Of a stretch of 64,000 nucleotides of DNA, positions 2,640 to 11,600 are shown one piece after another. The stretch comes from an uncultured Pelagibacteraceae bacterium. Lineage in GTDB: Bacteria > Pseudomonadota > Alphaproteobacteria > Pelagibacterales > Pelagibacteraceae. The stretch covers positions 1 to 64,000 of the forward strand of contig CABXZD010000001.1 in NCBI GenBank assembly GCA_902516465.1, given 5' to 3'. Positions within the stretch are counted from its first letter, which is position 1; every line of letters starts with the position of its first letter. The notes below the pieces were generated by a model. That model was not told where the DNA came from, did not search any database, and worked only from the letters and a program-made list of their open reading frames with translations. The position numbers and the translations under genes are program-made.

Positions 2640-3794
2640 ATGAAAGTTTATTATTGGAGTCCATTTATATCAAAAGTAGCAACAGTTAATGCTGTTTTAA
2701 ATTCCATTATATCAATTAAAAAGTTCTCTAAAAAAAAAATTGATTTAAGTATTATTAATGTTTTTAAAGAATGGGATTTATATAATGAGGAAATCAAAAA
2801 AAATCAAATTGAATGCATAAATTTAAATAGTCTATTGAATATAAGATATTTACCAAAAAAGGGTTTTCTTAAAAGCAGATTTACTTATTTTATAACTTTC
2901 ATATGCTCTATATTAAGCTTACATAATTTGTTAAAAAGACAAAGTCCAGATTTTTTATTAATTCATTTAATCTCCTCAATACCATTATCTTTAATAATTT
3001 TTTTTAATTACAAAACAAGTTTTATTTTAAGAGTGTCAGGTTATCCAAAATTAAATTTTATAAGAAGATTTTTTTGGAAAACTGCAGGAAAAAAAATTGA
3101 TAAAATATTCTGTCCAACTCAACTTACAAAGGATTTTCTTGTCAAAGAAAAGATATTTTCAGAAAAGAAAATATTTTTGGTTCACGATCCAATAATAGAA
3201 ACTAAAAAAATTAAAATATCACTTAAAAACAAGATTGATCAAAATGAAAATTATTTGAATAACACAAAATATATTATTTCAATAGGAAGACTTTCAAAGC
3301 AAAAAAATTTTAATTTCCTTATTGATAGTTTTAAAATTGTAGCTGAAAATAAAGATATTAAATTAGTTATTATTGGCCAGGGTGAGCAAAAAAAATTTTT
3401 AATCAATAAGATAAAAAAACTTAACCTTCAGGAAAAAGTTTTATTAATTGGTAATAAAAAAAATATTTTTCCATATCTTAAAGGCTCACTTTTTTTTGTT
3501 TTGACATCAGATTGGGAAGATCCAGGTTTTGTTATTATTGAGGCAATGTTTTCTCGAAAATTAATATTATCAAGTGATTGTCCTAATGGCCCTCGTGAGA
3601 TAATACAAAACTCACAAAATGGTTTTTTATATGAACAAAATAATTTTAAAGATTTTGAACAAAAATTAAATGGTGTATTAAATATACTTAATAAAAAAGA
3701 AAAAAAAAATTTTTTATTATTAAATGCTCTTAAAAAAACGAGAAATTATACAATTTTTAATCATTATTTAGAAATTAAAAAACATTTAGAATAA
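2640..3794 (+). CDS. GT4-family glycosyltransferase
   Basis: This is a 384-residue GT-B glycosyltransferase. The C-terminal donor-binding domain begins with ISIGRLSKQKNF near residue 214 and continues with LVIIGQGEQ. The GT4 E-x7-E region reads EDPGFVIIEAM near residue 297, with both glutamates kept, then CPNGPREII. That last stretch is typical of N-acetylhexosamine or hexose transferases in O-antigen and capsule loci. The gene starts the plus-strand pair with an FkbM methyltransferase 8 bases downstream. The donor is not predictable. Confidence 0.87.
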   Translation: MKVYYWSPFISKVATVNAVLNSIISIKKFSKKKIDLSIINVFKEWDLYNEEIKKNQIECINLNSLLNIRYLPKKGFLKSRFTYFITFICSILSLHNLLKRQSPDFLLIHLISSIPLSLIIFFNYKTSFILRVSGYPKLNFIRRFFWKTAGKKIDKIFCPTQLTKDFLVKEKIFSEKKIFLVHDPIIETKKIKISLKNKIDQNENYLNNTKYIISIGRLSKQKNFNFLIDSFKIVAENKDIKLVIIGQGEQKKFLINKIKKLNLQEKVLLIGNKKNIFPYLKGSLFFVLTSDWEDPGFVIIEAMFSRKLILSSDCPNGPREIIQNSQNGFLYEQNNFKDFEQKLNGVLNILNKKEKKNFLLLNALKKTRNYTIFNHYLEIKKHLE

Positions 3795-3802
3795 AATTAA
3801 AA

Positions 3803-4531
3803 ATGAAAAAATATTTAAATAACTTATTAGGTAAAATGGGTTACAAGGTTACTAAGCGAAAAAATTTTCTAAAACTTTTTAGAACACTTGATGAGACAAT
3901 CATATCATTAATAAATAAACAAAATCCAATTATATTCGATGTTGGTGCACACAATGGAGAGACAATTCAAAGATTTAATAAAGTTTTTAAATCACCAATA
4001 TTTCATTGCTTCGAACCTCAAAAAGATTGTTTTGAAAATCTCAAAAAGTTTGATTCAAAAAATGTTTTTTTAAATAATTTTGCCCTAGGTGAAAAAAAAG
4101 AAATTAAAGAAATAAATATTTTAAATGAAAGTGCTTCATCAAGCCTTTATAATTTAGATGAAAATTCTACTTTCCTAAATAATCTAAAAAAAGTTGATAC
4201 ACAAAAAATCAGTATCTCCACAATAGACGACTATGTTATGGAAAATAGCATTAAAACTATTGATTTATTAAAAATCGATGTTCAGGGATATGAGGATCAA
4301 GTCTTGAAAGGAGCTTTTAAAAGTCTTGAAAAATTTTTTCTCATTGAAGTTGAAATAATATTTGTTGATTATTATGAAAAGAAAAAAAGTTTTTATGATA
4401 TAGAGAAAACTTTTTTAAATAATAATTTTGAGCTTTATTCCATATCAACTCCACAATTTACAAAAAATTATAGAGTTAAATGGCTTGATGCACTTTATGT
4501 AAATACAAACTTATTGAGCAATTATCTTTAA
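3803..4531 (+). CDS. FkbM family methyltransferase (island copy 2)
   Basis: This 242-residue SAM-dependent methyltransferase has motif I FDVGAHNGETIQRF near residue 48, CFEPQKDC near 72 and the FkbM motif LLKIDVQGYEDQVLKGA near residue 155. It follows a GT4 gene by 8 bases and probably shares its transcript. Its TAA stop overlaps by four bases the stop of the convergent GMD-like gene, so no terminator fits between them. Methylation of a glycan hydroxyl is the likely role, inferred from the family and context. Confidence 0.85.
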   Translation: MKKYLNNLLGKMGYKVTKRKNFLKLFRTLDETIISLINKQNPIIFDVGAHNGETIQRFNKVFKSPIFHCFEPQKDCFENLKKFDSKNVFLNNFALGEKKEIKEINILNESASSSLYNLDENSTFLNNLKKVDTQKISISTIDDYVMENSIKTIDLLKIDVQGYEDQVLKGAFKSLEKFFLIEVEIIFVDYYEKKKSFYDIEKTFLNNNFELYSISTPQFTKNYRVKWLDALYVNTNLLSNYL

Positions 4532-5430
4532 ATGGATTTATAAATTTCTCTAGCAGCTAAAATAATATTCTTATTAGGTTGCCAATTTAATTTTTTTTTT
4601 GCGTAACTATTATCCCCAATAGGTAAAGATTTTCCAATAATTTTTTTTACAATCGGTAAATCTTTAAACTTATTTTTTTTTAAAAGAAGTCTGATTATAT
4701 TATTTATATATGTTTTTTTTTTAGAAGAAAAAATGATTTTATTTATATTTTTTTTATATAAGATTAGCTTATAAAGACCCAAACAAATGTCGTCCGCATG
4801 GCTGTAATCACCACTAATATTTTCTAAATAAATTTCTTTCAATTGGTCAATTTTTTTTATTTTGATCATTTTAATAATCCTTGGGAGTAGAAACTTTTTA
4901 TTTCTAAATTCTGAGTCGTGATTGAATAGGATTGCCATAACAATATTTGATTTATATTTCTTTTTATTTTTCATCATAAATTTATAGGAAGAAACTCTAA
5001 ATCTTCCATATGAGTTATATGGATTAAACTTAGTTTTAAGATTAATTTTTTTAATATTTCTTTTAAACATTTGAGAACTTCCTATGATGATAAGTTTTTG
5101 TTTTGGCTGATATGTAGAAAAATATTTAATCAAAAAATTTGTAGATCTAAGATTTTTTTCAAAAAAACTCTCTTGTTTTTCCTCAAAATAATTTGGATTC
5201 TCAGAACCAAGATGTACAAGACAGAATGGATTAACTTTTAGTAAGAATTTTTTAAATTTATTTTTATCTGATAAATTTATTTTTTTATAAATCACTCCTT
5301 TTATCGTTGGAGAATTTAACTTTTTTATAATTCCATAAACTATGTAATTTTTTTTAATCAAAAAATTGCTTAAAATCTTTCCATCCTGCCCAAGAGCTCC
5401 GGTGATGACTATGATTTTTTTTTTTTTCAT
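4528..5430 (-). CDS. Divergent GDP-mannose 4,6-dehydratase-like SDR protein
   Basis: This 300-residue extended SDR protein opens with ITGALGQDGKILSNFLI, the cofactor loop characteristic of GDP-mannose 4,6-dehydratase (GQDG), and has the GMD-like ILFNHDSEF. The active site is changed compared with the intact gmd at 17191: TSEMYG becomes SSQMFK (Glu to Gln), and the YGVAK tetrad segment becomes YGRFR, so the catalytic Lys is Arg. It is about 50 residues shorter than gmd. It could be a GDP-4-keto-6-deoxy-sugar reductase or epimerase, another SDR activity, or a decaying paralog. The frame is intact, which argues for function. Confidence 0.7.
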   Translation of the reverse strand: MKKKKIIVITGALGQDGKILSNFLIKKNYIVYGIIKKLNSPTIKGVIYKKINLSDKNKFKKFLLKVNPFCLVHLGSENPNYFEEKQESFFEKNLRSTNFLIKYFSTYQPKQKLIIIGSSQMFKRNIKKINLKTKFNPYNSYGRFRVSSYKFMMKNKKKYKSNIVMAILFNHDSEFRNKKFLLPRIIKMIKIKKIDQLKEIYLENISGDYSHADDICLGLYKLILYKKNINKIIFSSKKKTYINNIIRLLLKKNKFKDLPIVKKIIGKSLPIGDNSYAKKKLNWQPNKNIILAAREIYKSI

Positions 5431-5527
5431 AAAAATTTATAAATTCTTAATTAACTTGTATTAATTATAAAAAACACTTAATAGATAGAAATATTTTTTT
5501 AAAATATAGAATATAATACTTATTTAT

Positions 5528-6751
5528 ATGAAACTTAAAAAATGTAGGGTTTGTAATTCATCAAAATTTATCAACCTTTTTTCACTCGGCAAATTAAGTT
5601 TTACAGGGAAATTTGCTAGATCCACAAAAATTAATATTCCAAAGGATTTTCTAAATTTGATAATTTGTAAAAAATGTAAGTTAGTACAACTTGATAGAAA
5701 TTTTGACCCTAAGTATCTTTATTCAAAAGATTACGGTTATCGAACTGGAATAAATAAAACAATGACTGAACATGTTAAGTTTATAGCCGATAGTGCAATC
5801 AAAATAGTTAAACCAAAAAAAAATGATATGATTTTAGATATTGCAAGCAATGATGCAACTCTCTTAAATTTTTACAGTAATAAGTTTATTACTGTCGGTA
5901 TCGATCCATTAGTCGGAAAATATAAGATGTTTTATAAAAAAATTAATTTTAAAATTTCAAATTTTTTTTCATTAAAAGAGTTAAAAAAAAAAAATGTTCA
6001 TAAAAACTATAAAATAATAACAGCACTATCAATGTTTTACGATTTAAAAAAACCAAATCAATTTATTAAAGATATAAAAAAAATTCTTCATCAAAACGGA
6101 GTATTTATATTAGAACATGCAGATTTACTATCTATAATGAAAAATTGTTTATTTGATACTATCTGTCATGAGCATTTAGAATATTATTCGACAAGAATAA
6201 TAAAGAAATTAATGGAAAAAAATGAGTTGAGAGTCTTTGATATTAAACAGAACGATATTAATGGTGGAAGTATGTGTTATTTTATTTCTCATAATAAATC
6301 TAAATATAAAACGAATAAAAAAGTAATTAATAAAATCTTAGAGGAAGAAAAAAAATTCAAATTAGAAAGTAAAAATACGTATGTAAAATTTTTCAAAAGA
6401 ATCAATTTAATCAAGAATAATTTAAACAAGATCTTAGATAATCATTATAAATCCAATAAAATTATTCATGCATATGGAGCATCAACTAAAGGGAATGTTT
6501 TACTACAATATTTTAATATTTCAAATAACATAATAAAATTTATTGCAGATAGAAATAACAAAAAAGTAAATTCATTTACACCAGGAACAAAAATAAAAAT
6601 AATTTCTGAGGAGCAATCAAGAAAAATGCTACCTGATTACTACCTTGTTTTGCCCTGGCATTTTAAAAAGGAAATTTTAGAAAGAGAGTTGAAAATTAGA
6701 AAAAAAGGAACAAAATTTATTTTTCCTCTTCCAAAACTAGAAATTATATAA
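5528..6751 (+). CDS. Zinc-binding sugar C-methyltransferase-like protein
   Basis: This 407-residue protein has the three-part layout of TylC3/NovU-type methyltransferases. An N-terminal zinc site has two Cys-x2-Cys pairs (CRVC near residue 6 and CKKC near 48). A central SAM domain has DIASNDATLL near 105 and the family signature CHEHLEYYS near 215. A C-terminal domain has HAYGASTKGNVLLQYF near 314 and LPWHF near 393. Relatives C-methylate 4-keto-6-deoxy sugars or process nucleotide-linked sugars. A TATAAT at 5512-5517 lies only 10 bases before the ATG, which hints at a very short leader. Confidence 0.82.
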   Translation: MKLKKCRVCNSSKFINLFSLGKLSFTGKFARSTKINIPKDFLNLIICKKCKLVQLDRNFDPKYLYSKDYGYRTGINKTMTEHVKFIADSAIKIVKPKKNDMILDIASNDATLLNFYSNKFITVGIDPLVGKYKMFYKKINFKISNFFSLKELKKKNVHKNYKIITALSMFYDLKKPNQFIKDIKKILHQNGVFILEHADLLSIMKNCLFDTICHEHLEYYSTRIIKKLMEKNELRVFDIKQNDINGGSMCYFISHNKSKYKTNKKVINKILEEEKKFKLESKNTYVKFFKRINLIKNNLNKILDNHYKSNKIIHAYGASTKGNVLLQYFNISNNIIKFIADRNNKKVNSFTPGTKIKIISEEQSRKMLPDYYLVLPWHFKKEILERELKIRKKGTKFIFPLPKLEII

Positions 6752-6757
6752 TGTTAT

Positions 6758-7897
6758 TTAATTGTAATTTTTTATCATTATTTTTGTATTTTCCTCCAGA
6801 TCGTACTTCTTAACACTTTTATTTTTTAACTTTTTATAAAAATATTTTTGTTTGAATTTTTTGACAATAAAAAAAGCCATATCTCTTGGATTGTAATTTT
6901 TTAATATAAAACCGTTAATATTATTTTTTACTATCTCATTAGCTCCCTTAGTATCAAACGTAAAAACTGGGAGACCAGAAGCAATAGCCTCTATAATTGT
7001 AATTCCGAAAGACTCGACTCTAGCTAAGTTAACATATAAATCATTTTTTTTATAAATTTTAATTAATTTTGAGTTAGGAAAATAAACTTCATTATTATTA
7101 TTTATTTGAGAAATAATCTTAAAATATTTAATATTTTTTTTAATAAAATCTTTTTTTAATAAATTATCTGAATTTCGTCCCACCAAAGTCCATTTAAAAT
7201 TTATTTTTTTTTTGATAAGAATTTTTGATATTTTTTCAATCAGGTCCAACCCTTTTTTTGCTTCTGAGTATCTGGCCACAGTTATTAGACTTAGACATTT
7301 TCTTGTTTTTTTTATTTTCTTTATTTTTATATTTTTAATTTTTTTAATATCTACTGTATTTGGAATACTTATTATTTCACCCTTATAGCCTAACTTTAAA
7401 AGCTCCTTTTTTACATCATTTGAAATTACAAAGACTTTGTCAACTATTCTCAAAGTTTTAACTAACAAATTCTCGTATTTTGAGTCAAATCTATATCCAT
7501 AATCTATACTTTTAAATTTTTGTATGTCCGCTCCTTGAAAAGTAATGCAAATTCTTTGGCCAAGATTTTTTAGTGGCTTGATATAAAGAAGTGTTTTGTA
7601 GTTAACTGAATGAAAATGCCAGATAGAGTAATTTTTTTTTAAAAATTTTTTAAAGCTCAATTGAATTAAAATACTCAGATCTATGGAAAAATAATATTTT
7701 AGTATGAATACTATATTTATTAAAAACTTGTTTAATTTCTTTATGTGATACTTCCTATTATTAATTTTTTCATTATTTAATAAAAATACATCAACAGAAT
7801 TTTTTAGTTCTTGAGATTTGTTTGCCATATTATGTGCTTGAATTTCAGCACCACCAACCCATGGAAGAAATGTAGCAGGGATGTATCCAATTTTCAT
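6758..7897 (-). CDS. GT4-family glycosyltransferase
   Basis: The protein has 379 residues and a GT-B layout. The N-terminus has WVGGAEIQAHNMA near residue 13, the loop that contacts acceptor and donor in GT4 enzymes, and FQGADIQ near 120. The C-terminal domain has a GRNSDN segment near 240 and ARVESFGITIIEAIASGLPVF near residue 292, with both glutamates of the E-x7-E motif, followed by GANEIV. It converges on the C-methyltransferase gene with six bases between stops. Upstream lies the 335-base spacer holding the epimerase remnant. The donor sugar is unknown. Confidence 0.87.
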   Translation of the reverse strand: MKIGYIPATFLPWVGGAEIQAHNMANKSQELKNSVDVFLLNNEKINNRKYHIKKLNKFLINIVFILKYYFSIDLSILIQLSFKKFLKKNYSIWHFHSVNYKTLLYIKPLKNLGQRICITFQGADIQKFKSIDYGYRFDSKYENLLVKTLRIVDKVFVISNDVKKELLKLGYKGEIISIPNTVDIKKIKNIKIKKIKKTRKCLSLITVARYSEAKKGLDLIEKISKILIKKKINFKWTLVGRNSDNLLKKDFIKKNIKYFKIISQINNNNEVYFPNSKLIKIYKKNDLYVNLARVESFGITIIEAIASGLPVFTFDTKGANEIVKNNINGFILKNYNPRDMAFFIVKKFKQKYFYKKLKNKSVKKYDLEENTKIMIKNYN

Positions 7898-8098
7898 AGA
7901 TTTAAAATATTAATTATAAAGTTAAACAATTAAACTATTTATCTATTATAAATTATAAAATAAATCTAATTAAAAAATATAAAAAATAGAAAATCATAAT
8001 TTACTCAATAGATTTCGATTTAAGATTTAATACTTCTAATTTAAGTCATAATTTGTAAATAAACTTTATTATGTTGAAAATTTATATATAAATAATTT
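7898..8098. other. AT-rich intergenic spacer, no gene recognised
   Basis: This is the left part of the only stretch above 300 bases without an intact gene. It is almost pure A and T and separates divergently transcribed genes, so promoters for both sides are expected here. I see no convincing -35/-10 pair, hairpin, tRNA or conserved RNA in it. Confidence 0.5.
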
Positions 8099-8236
8099 AT
8101 GTATTTAATAACTAGTGCCGTAGCCTTCATTGGCTTTCATCTTTATAATTATTTTTTAAAGAAAAAGAAAATAGTTGTTGGCATTGATAATATAAATGAT
8201 TATTACGATAGAAAATTTAAACTTGATAGACAATGA
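8099..8236 (+). pseudogene. Remnant of nucleotide-sugar epimerase N-terminus (45 codons)
   Basis: An ATG at 8099 opens a 45-codon frame ending in a TGA at 8234-8236. Its product strongly resembles the first 45 residues of UDP-glucuronate 4-epimerase/CapI-type SDR proteins: a beta strand, AFIGFHLYNYFL and then GIDNINDYYD, a family hallmark. The Rossmann loop TGxxGFIG has become TSAVAFIG, so the first two glycines are lost, and the rest of the roughly 320-residue enzyme is missing. The stop overlaps the kdsB start as ATGA. I infer a deletion scar; the frame may survive as a leader that couples translation to kdsB. Confidence 0.72.
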
Positions 8237-9009
8237 AAAAAAAAGTTATAGGTCTTATTCCAACTAGATTATCATCCACCCGTCTTCCAAAAAAACCATT
8301 GATAAAAATTAACAATATTCCTTTAATAATTCACACCTATAGACGAGCTAAACTTGCTAAACGTTTAGACGAGGTAATAATTTGTTGCGACGATAAAAAA
8401 ATAATTAATATTGCTAAACGTTATAATGCTAAGGCTATCTTAACATCGAAAAAACATCAAAATGGTACTGAAAGAATTTTCGAAGGATATAAAAAAGTTA
8501 ATAAAAGATTTGATTTAATTATTGACATTCAAGGAGATGAACCATTAATTTCACCTGATCAAATTGATCAAGTAATAAATTTTCATTTAAAAAATTTAAA
8601 AACCGAAATAATACTGCCCTCACTAAAATTTAAAAATATCTCTAGTTTTAATATTGTTAAAGTGATTGCAGATAATGAGCAAAAAGTGATGTATCTCTCA
8701 AGAAGTAAAGTCCCACATAATTTCAACAAAAATTCAGATTACTATCTTAAACATTTATCAATCATATCTTTTTTGCCAAAAGCATTAAGTAAATTTTGTA
8801 AGAGCAAACAAACAAGGTTGGAGAAAATCGAGGGTATAGAATTGATGAGAGCACTTGAAATAGGTTTAAAAATTAAAACAGTTACTCTTAAAGGAAATAG
8901 TTTTTCGGTAGACATTAAAGAGGATTTAAAAAAGGCAAAACAAGTTATGAAAAAAGATAAATTATTTAAATTATATTCAGATGAAAAAAAAAGTAGATAT
9001 TTTAGATGA
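8233..9009 (+). CDS. kdsB: 3-deoxy-manno-octulosonate cytidylyltransferase (CMP-KDO synthetase)
   Basis: The enzyme activates KDO with CTP to give CMP-KDO for lipid A core or capsule synthesis in the cytoplasm. The 258-residue length fits the family. The nucleotide-binding N-terminus reads IPTRLSSTRLPKKPL, followed by the substrate stretch HQNGTERIFEG near residue 75 and the metal site DIQGDEPLI near 98. It is the only KDO gene in the island: no kdsA, kdsC or kdsD is seen nearby. An exporter-linked KDO or related keto-sugar on the surface glycan is possible. The 3-prime end overlaps the next gene by 29 bases. Confidence 0.9.
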   Translation: MKKKVIGLIPTRLSSTRLPKKPLIKINNIPLIIHTYRRAKLAKRLDEVIICCDDKKIINIAKRYNAKAILTSKKHQNGTERIFEGYKKVNKRFDLIIDIQGDEPLISPDQIDQVINFHLKNLKTEIILPSLKFKNISSFNIVKVIADNEQKVMYLSRSKVPHNFNKNSDYYLKHLSIISFLPKALSKFCKSKQTRLEKIEGIELMRALEIGLKIKTVTLKGNSFSVDIKEDLKKAKQVMKKDKLFKLYSDEKKSRYFR

Positions 9010-10030
9010 GATTATAAGTAATTTTAAATTTAGTATTAAAAGCTATAATAAAAAATCTCAAAGTAATCATTGGTTATACAATAACAAAAAAAAAAAAGAA
9101 TTATTCATTAAAAAAAATTTAAGTAATTTTCGTAATAATGGGTTGTCTGATGGGATGGATGATACATTTTATTCAAAAAAAAAATCACTGGAATTATTTA
9201 AAATAATTCAAAAAGAATGCGGTGATAAATTTTTACAAAAAATGCTTTTAAAGACTAATATAGGGAATTCAAAAGAAACTCTTAAATATAGATCATATTT
9301 TTATACTGCACACGAATTATTTCATTTAAAATTTGTTTACGAAATTAAAAAAAAAATTTCTTTAAATAAAAAGAATATAATCTGTGAAATAGGGCCAGCT
9401 TATGGATCAATGATAAGCAAATTAATAAAATTATATGGATCAAAAGCGATATTAATTGATTTACCTGAAGCAAATTTTATGAGTTATTTTTATCTGAAAA
9501 AATTATTTCCGAATAAAAAATTTTTTGTGAGTCAAAACATAAAAAATAATAAAATTTCAGAAGAAGACATAAAAAAAAATGATATTATTATTTTATGTCC
9601 TTGGGAAAAAATACCAAAAATAAAGATAGACTTTTTTATTAATGTCAGATCTATGATGGAGATGACCTATGATGTAATTCAAGAATATTTTGATTTAATA
9701 CAAAAAAAAATTACAAATAATGGATATTTCTTATGTATTAACAGATATTATAAAGATACCGTTGGATATCCTATTGAAATTGATAATTATCCTTATGATA
9801 AAAATTGGAAGGTAATAATTTCTAAAGCCTCATGGAAACAAAATCATATTCATTTTTTACTAACACAAAGAAAAAAAAATTCTAATAATGAGATTTTTGA
9901 GGAACAAAAAAAAATTCGTGTATTATCAAAAAAAGTACGATTGAAAGATAAACTATTTATTAGAAGAATTACACCTAATTTTATTTATAAATCTTATAAA
10001 AAAATCAAATATTCTCTTCTCGGAAAATAA
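8981..10030 (+). CDS. Putative sugar O-methyltransferase
   Basis: This 349-residue protein has a SAM-binding motif ICEIGPAYGSMISKL near residue 133 followed by LIDLPEANFMSYFYL, the arrangement found in the putative sugar O-methyltransferase family of surface-polysaccharide loci. The N-terminal part has SDGMDDTFYS near residue 50, also typical of that family. It overlaps kdsB by 29 bases in another frame, so co-transcription is likely. A run of twelve A residues lies inside the coding sequence at 9086-9097 and is in frame here. Confidence 0.7.
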   Translation: MKKKVDILDEIISNFKFSIKSYNKKSQSNHWLYNNKKKKELFIKKNLSNFRNNGLSDGMDDTFYSKKKSLELFKIIQKECGDKFLQKMLLKTNIGNSKETLKYRSYFYTAHELFHLKFVYEIKKKISLNKKNIICEIGPAYGSMISKLIKLYGSKAILIDLPEANFMSYFYLKKLFPNKKFFVSQNIKNNKISEEDIKKNDIIILCPWEKIPKIKIDFFINVRSMMEMTYDVIQEYFDLIQKKITNNGYFLCINRYYKDTVGYPIEIDNYPYDKNWKVIISKASWKQNHIHFLLTQRKKNSNNEIFEEQKKIRVLSKKVRLKDKLFIRRITPNFIYKSYKKIKYSLLGK

Positions 10031-10034
10031 AATT

Positions 10035-11600
10035 GTGAAAAAAAAAAAATTATTAATATTTCATTCGCAAGCAAAGTTTAAAGTAAAGGAAGAATTTGAT
10101 TTTTATGTGAATTTAGGAGATGGAAATTTGGAAATTAAGAACTCTAAACAAATTTCTCTTAAGAATTATTATAAAAAAAACTACGATTATTTTAGAAAAA
10201 AATTTATTAATTCTCTAAATAAAAAAATTCTACAATCAAGGGATGAGATGAATTTATTCAATGAACTAGAAATATTTAATTTAAGAAATGATAAGATAAA
10301 CGATATAGACACAATAGTTAACATATTGATTTTAAAAAAAATTGTTAGTGAGTTCAAAATTGATAATATATTTCTTATTACCGATAATCAGTTGACCAAA
10401 AGTGTTCTAATTCAAATTTATCCAAATATTGAAATAGTAAATTTTCAAAAAAGAAACACATATCTTTTACCTTTTTTTAAGATAACATCATTTTATTTAA
10501 AAACTTTTTTTATTATCATCATGACTAAGTTTTTTAAAAATTACAGGTTATTAAAAAATAATTATAATGAAGCATGTATTTCCCTTGCACCTTTTTTTTA
10601 TAAAGATCAAAGAGAAAATTTTTTCAAAAATAAAAATAACTTAAAATTAAATTTTTTACTTACAGATGAAACTCATCTAAATTTTTCAATCATAGATATC
10701 TACAAAATTTTAAAGATTAATTATGAAAACTTAGTGCATGTTGAGTCTGCTATAAATTTTAAAGATTTAGTATGTGGTTTATTAAGGTCCTATAAATATA
10801 TTTATTACATAAATGGATTAAATATGAAATTTAATGTTGAAATGACAGATTTTTCGTTATTTTATAAAAAACATTTAATTATCAGTGCAATTAATAGGTC
10901 AAAACTTAATATCTATAATAAAGCAGTTCCAAATTTAATTGAAAGATTTCAAATTAAAAAATTCAATATGTATTTATTTGAATACAGCTTTGGTTTTTAT
11001 CTTATTAAATTAATCAAAATGAAATTTAAAAAAGTAGATATTATTGGTTACCAGCATGGGATTTTTTCAGATAAACTAATGTGGTTTGATATTCTTCTAA
11101 GGAAAAAAAAAAATACTCTGTATTTTCCAAATAAGATTGTTTGTTTTAATTCACAATCATTGAAAGATTATAAGAAAATTTTACCAAATTATATTAATTA
11201 TAAATTAGTTGATAAACCTTTGTCAAAAATTTCAATTTTATTTCAATCACTTAAGAAAAAAAGTTTAAAAAAACATATTTTAATACTTCCAGGAACACAT
11301 GACGCAAAAATTATTTATGAAAGATTTAAAAATAGGGCCTTAAATTTAGATAAATCAAATGAAATCTTTTATTTTAAATTTCACCCAAAAAACATGGTTG
11401 TGGTTTCAGATTATAAAAATTTAAAAATAATAACATCTATAAATAATAAAAAATTTAACTTTGTTTTAATTTCTTCATCATCCACTTTGGTTTACGATTT
11501 TTATAAGTTAAAAAAAAAATTTATGGTATATGATATTGATAACAAGCAAAATTTAATTTCATCAAGCTTTTCGAGTAAAATAAAATTTTTTGAAATTTGA
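10035..11600 (+). CDS. Unknown protein, possibly a GT-B-type surface-glycan transferase
   Basis: I do not recognise this 521-residue protein. It begins with GTG four bases after the previous stop. The N-terminal half is poorly conserved in appearance. The C-terminal half has GYQHGIFSDKLMW near residue 335, ILILPGTHDAK near 415, FHPKNM near 450 and LISSSSTLVYDF near 478. Histidine-rich GYQHG, FHPK and SSST motifs in this order recall polysialyltransferase-like, CDP-glycerol-transferase-like and other GT-B carbohydrate proteins. No signal peptide is seen; one hydrophobic segment lies near residue 155. A transferase acting on the surface glycan is a reasonable guess from motifs and context only. 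Confidence 0.5.
   Translation: MKKKKLLIFHSQAKFKVKEEFDFYVNLGDGNLEIKNSKQISLKNYYKKNYDYFRKKFINSLNKKILQSRDEMNLFNELEIFNLRNDKINDIDTIVNILILKKIVSEFKIDNIFLITDNQLTKSVLIQIYPNIEIVNFQKRNTYLLPFFKITSFYLKTFFIIIMTKFFKNYRLLKNNYNEACISLAPFFYKDQRENFFKNKNNLKLNFLLTDETHLNFSIIDIYKILKINYENLVHVESAINFKDLVCGLLRSYKYIYYINGLNMKFNVEMTDFSLFYKKHLIISAINRSKLNIYNKAVPNLIERFQIKKFNMYLFEYSFGFYLIKLIKMKFKKVDIIGYQHGIFSDKLMWFDILLRKKKNTLYFPNKIVCFNSQSLKDYKKILPNYINYKLVDKPLSKISILFQSLKKKSLKKHILILPGTHDAKIIYERFKNRALNLDKSNEIFYFKFHPKNMVVVSDYKNLKIITSINNKKFNFVLISSSSTLVYDFYKLKKKFMVYDIDNKQNLISSSFSSKIKFFEI

Follow-up and report, generated by a model that had tools for sequence, protein, structure and literature searches.

Introduction

HVR2 of SAR11 has been described as a surface region whose sequence and gene order change rapidly (PMC2217521), and replacement flexible genomic islands are set out in a second report (PMC4033161). 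Reinitiation at ATGA is known in other systems (PMC6728339). We analyzed a 45-codon frame in a stretch of 64,000 nucleotides (the window) from an uncultured Pelagibacteraceae bacterium. A sequence-only reading had taken this frame for the start of an epimerase gene fused to kdsB.

Results

The frame lies at 8099-8236 on the plus strand. The first 44 residues of its 45-residue product (8099-8230) are homologous to the N terminus of extended-SDR nucleotide-sugar epimerases; a CAA codon and a TGA stop follow, and the stop overlaps the ATG of kdsB (8233) as ATGA (8233-8236). Matches to the peptide at E≤1e-8 were found in 89 of 399 same-genus genomes, the source genome being one of the 89, and at E≤1e-9 in 32 of 397 family genomes, again counting the source genome; the two samples overlap. 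The best nonself E values were 2.5e-14 (G127, same-genus sample) and 6.8e-15 (G440, family sample), and the top three matches by E value (G440, G555, and G127) showed 61-67% identity over 42-44 residues. The nearest solved structure was PDB 5u4q (E=5.5e-8). Curated profiles scored weakly because the peptide is so short (Pfam GDP_Man_Dehyd, E=0.14; NCBIfam TviC, E=0.027). The matches are far beyond chance, and the 89 same-genus matches and the ATGA at 8233 bear out the claim of an epimerase N-terminal frame whose stop overlaps the kdsB start. That such a frame abuts kdsB is thus confirmed.

Each of the 88 other same-genus matches falls in an open frame of 187 aa or more; the only two shorter than 300 aa, in G121 (229 aa) and G322 (187 aa), are both cut by contig ends. 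The 31 other family matches lie in frames of at least 319 aa. A functional 45-mer common to many genomes was therefore ruled out, and the peptide as such was absent from every other genome in the same-genus and family samples. With its significant homology and its truncation, the frame is the remnant, or stub, of an epimerase gene. At the looser threshold of E≤0.001, 45 of 101 relatives (source genome included) gave matches, with short frames in two, G012 and G032. The G012 frame was rejected as a similar stub, as the remainder of its epimerase continues in another frame; in this gene (L033, 1629-667, minus strand) the reading frame changes after about 46 codons, splitting the epimerase. The epimerase of G032 is independently broken (L164, G032:C4:57500-61500, about 2426-2095, minus strand), with its N terminus retained to about residue 72 and its glycines intact. 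Beyond that N terminus, a weak C-terminal piece was found in another frame (best E, 0.011) and the middle is missing.

In an alignment of 56 homologues, from which the frameshifted L033 was excluded, K41 and R44 of the stub match invariant columns, whereas the glutamine at position 45 occurs in none of the 56. Arg44 is therefore the last homologous residue, and the recognizable epimerase part ends at 8230. A DNA search with 7898-8236 gave matches in 292 of 399 genomes at E≤0.001, many of them short and confined to the AT-rich spacer. Next to the source genome itself, the seven top-ranking places, one per genome, are epimerase starts that were also found by the peptide search, and among the matches listed, only the source genome continues past window position 8231.

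UDP-glucuronate 4-epimerase is a plausible parent enzyme as judged from neighboring genes. Three full-length homologues reached no cutoff among the NCBIfam profiles. At 12 of 64 epimerase loci, the examined stretch includes a UDP-glucose 6-dehydrogenase gene, and in G127, G290, and G372 this gene follows the epimerase directly, which fits a UDP-uronate 4-epimerase as the putative parent. The source genome also carries an intact epimerase of the stub's kind on contig C3 (342-aa frame, 48% identity over the stub).

The sequence-only reading held that the Rossmann glycines and the rest of the enzyme had been lost. For the glycines this is correct at two of three positions: G6 is replaced by serine and G9 by alanine, but G12 is kept. 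G6 and G9 are invariant in all 63 intact homologues (the 56 aligned and 7 further ones). The absence of the rest was borne out as well, since homology stops at Arg44 and seven queries for the remaining epimerase (E≤1) returned from the window only other intact SDR genes and chance-level matches. A full-length catalytic domain takes about 310-340 aa, against 45 codons in the stub. Truncated and deprived of two of three Rossmann glycines, the stub is dead as an enzyme.

Over 13 conserved columns, the stub scored 34.5, below every one of the 56 homologues (48.4 ± 1.6), while over the other 32 columns its score was low but in range, as 4 of the 56 reached the stub's score or fell below it. Against eight intact homologues, the dN of the stub was 0.29-0.34, much as among intact homologues themselves (median 0.33, 66 pairs; dS was saturated in several of the selection comparisons). 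Decay beyond the glycines is therefore not evident. The glycine changes also bear on the idea that the epimerase start was joined to kdsB by an assembly or amplification chimera. The genome is a draft in 20 contigs with 87% completeness, and its joint was seen in no other genome sampled, but a chimera formed from an intact gene should have retained the glycines, and the two changes occur in none of the 63 intact homologues. We consider such an artifact very improbable.

The kdsB gene itself (8233-9009, plus strand) is intact and is the first gene of a module common to G184 and G166. Its product belongs to the CMP-Kdo synthetase family (CTP_transf_3, E=1.1e-44) and scores above the cutoffs of NCBIfam NF003952 and TIGR00466. 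G184 (84%) and G166 (74%) carry its nearest relatives; dN was 0.165 and dS 1.21 against the latter, and the gene looks to be under purifying selection. A second, more distant kdsB (35%) lies on contig C2 of the source genome. A search of phage records gave no match, and no viral contig carrying kdsB was confirmed. The next gene in the shared module encodes a putative sugar O-methyltransferase of the NanM family, TIGR04371 (8981-10030, plus strand). We note that the two genes overlap by 29 bases (8981-9009), an overlap of equal length in G184 (L036, 2249-2277).

At the joint (8231-8236, plus strand), two bases, CA, follow the last homologous codon and precede the ATGA. We compared this arrangement with 25 distinct kdsB relatives (L036-L052, L096-L101, L103, and L104, after four duplicate loci and the source locus were dropped). 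Twelve have a 4-nt overlap before kdsB (10 ATGA, one TTGA, and one GTGA) with other genes upstream, while three have a 1-nt overlap, one an 8-nt overlap, and nine none; for L050 and L099, which had no assigned start in the overlap survey, the values were taken from the upstream-gene comparison. The upstream genes are varied, with short-chain dehydrogenase, aminotransferase, and other labels assigned by eye rather than by profiles. The overlap thus belongs with the start of kdsB itself and provides weak evidence of fusion; as proof of fusion it was rejected. No clear microhomology was seen by eye at the joint across 16 homologues. A full epimerase at the same place, directly before kdsB, was proposed as well, but none of the 25 relatives carries an epimerase of the stub's type there. 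In that scan, 55 epimerase queries of intact length or longer, plus the stub, were set against the 1,300 nt upstream of every kdsB (283 nt for L096); all matches, which fell in four of the regions, were to distant SDR sequences at 28-37% identity.

Because the frame is still open, retains its ATG, and overlaps kdsB as ATGA, the stub could be a selected leader whose translation would bring ribosomes to kdsB by termination-reinitiation, an explanation compatible with either history of the joint. In other systems, coupling at overlaps of this kind is established (PMC6728339), and the 4-nt overlap recurs in the 12 relatives noted above. However, the lack of overlap in nine of 25 relatives means that coupling is not obligatory, and the stub is not conserved among the other genomes sampled. 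The open frame is also not unlikely after modest neutral decay: the chance of its staying open after 10, 15, and 20 random changes was about 0.43, 0.33, and 0.23, respectively. Nor was a promoter-like site found upstream. A scan of 7700-8500 gave one sigma-70-like site, inside kdsB (mean for shuffled sequences, 7.4), and so does not bear out the earlier suggestion that kdsB had acquired the epimerase's expression signals, and an Rfam search over 6500-10500 gave no match. Overall, we think a selected leader unlikely.

We compared the slot between the glycosyltransferase gene at 2640-3794 (plus strand) and kdsB with those of G184 and G166, which share both of these genes. The left flank is collinear in the two relatives, with homologues of the genes at 696, 1796, and 2640 in the same order, and so is the right flank, comprising kdsB, the O-methyltransferase gene, and the genes at 10035, 11619, 12233, 12976, 13992, and 14731. 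The islands are not identical gene for gene, as an additional glycosyltransferase separates the homologues of 1796 and 2640 in G184. Between these flanks, the slot holds one glycosyltransferase in G166 and, in G184, a homologue of that glycosyltransferase plus a GMD-like gene; in both, the last slot gene overlaps kdsB as ATGA. In the window, the differing segment (3803-8232), which we take as the putative replaced block, contains four genes, a spacer, and the stub: an FkbM methyltransferase gene (3803-4531, plus strand), a GMD-like gene (4528-5430, minus strand), a C-methyltransferase gene (5528-6751, plus strand), a glycosyltransferase gene divergent from the stub (6758-7897, minus strand), and the spacer between the latter and the stub (7898-8098), in which no sigma-70-like site was found. 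Thus, among the three genomes, collinear flanks enclose different slot contents, as in a replacement island.

At E≤1e-20, no homologues of the genes at 3803, 4528, and 5528 were found in G184 or G166. The GMD-like gene at 4528 is distantly related to that of the G184 slot (27%, 6.5e-13); none of the other three shows any clear similarity to what the relatives carry in the slot. The glycosyltransferase at 6758 has a homologue of about 60% in G184, located at the island's far left, and this gene, adjoining the stub here, appears from its positions to have moved within the island. Homologues of it are split into two frames in G311 (L151, 10187-11357) and G166 (L152, 5270-6413), which are frameshifts or sequencing errors.

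A local deletion, as the sequence-only reading proposed, would start from an ancestor in which the epimerase, perhaps followed by UDP-glucose 6-dehydrogenase, preceded kdsB, and would have removed everything from epimerase codon 45 through the intervening DNA. Such an order, epimerase, Ugd, and kdsB on one strand, is present in G290, the epimerase-Ugd adjacency recurs in G127 and G372, and the G032 epimerase was broken in place by an internal deletion. However, identity to the kdsB of G290 is only 47-48%, other genes occupy the slot in the nearest kdsB relatives (84% and 74%), and the upstream scan found no epimerase of the stub's type directly before kdsB in any of the 25 relatives. We therefore hold local deletion to be a possible but distinctly less probable origin; the epimerase remnant stands, while synteny favors replacement of the whole segment between 2640 and kdsB.

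Discussion

Collinear flanks with different slot contents in G184 and G166 mean that the stub is most simply read as the edge of a replaced block, and replacement is, we think, the probable explanation, with the stub as the block's truncated right edge. A gene block of about 3803-8232 would have displaced the segment that in the two relatives separates the 2640 glycosyltransferase from kdsB, and the genome of the window would be the one that changed. We infer that recombination of this kind, rather than deletion, made the joint. The block's right edge would fall within the epimerase gene, just behind codon 44 and two bases short of the kdsB start codon, and would have left behind a stub that cannot be an enzyme, with two Rossmann glycines lost, and presumably without selected function. 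The ATGA would be supplied by kdsB, which begins with these bases, so that an upstream frame truncated in the matching register would end on the TGA; by chance, about one in three would be in that register. We found no donor in which the window's block ends with an intact epimerase. The stub is ordinary island turnover, a very clean scar of gene shuffling, and the earlier view of it as a sign of such turnover is upheld by the remnant and by the different slot content between collinear flanks.

The kdsB start might, further, be a recurrent island joint, at which the last gene of a new block could be cut almost anywhere with the block still driving the module, because kdsB begins with ATGA and about one-third of truncated upstream frames therefore end on its TGA and can feed ribosomes to it. 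We give this idea little credence, and equally little to its corollary that the stub is a trapped leader kept open by weak selection. With block replacement as the preferred reading, the mark of one such exchange in a surface-sugar island of SAR11 is placed to within two bases, and relatives show alternative contents of the slot. This raises the questions of whether exchange joints in such islands prefer start codons and whether genes downstream continue to be translated by way of short remnant frames.

Among known systems, the stub is closest in sequence to the extended-SDR nucleotide-sugar epimerases in the WbgU, WbpP, TviC, and GalE neighborhood, of which PDB 5u4q is nearest. Residues 1-44 align along the N-terminal beta-alpha-beta start and keep F10, I11, G12, G28, D30, Y35, Y36, K41, and R44; unlike these enzymes, the stub ends at codon 44, has S6 and A9 in place of G6 and G9, and is without the catalytic part. 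With the overlapping ATGA gene pairs for which translational coupling is described (PMC6728339), the joint shares the 4-nt stop/start overlap, but its upstream partner is a gene remnant. Replacement flexible genomic islands (PMC4033161) and the HVR2 surface-polysaccharide region of SAR11 (PMC2217521) share with the window surface-sugar genes of varied content between shared flanks. By analogy, the locus fits that picture, and differs from those islands in its single-slot scale and in the truncated gene at its edge.
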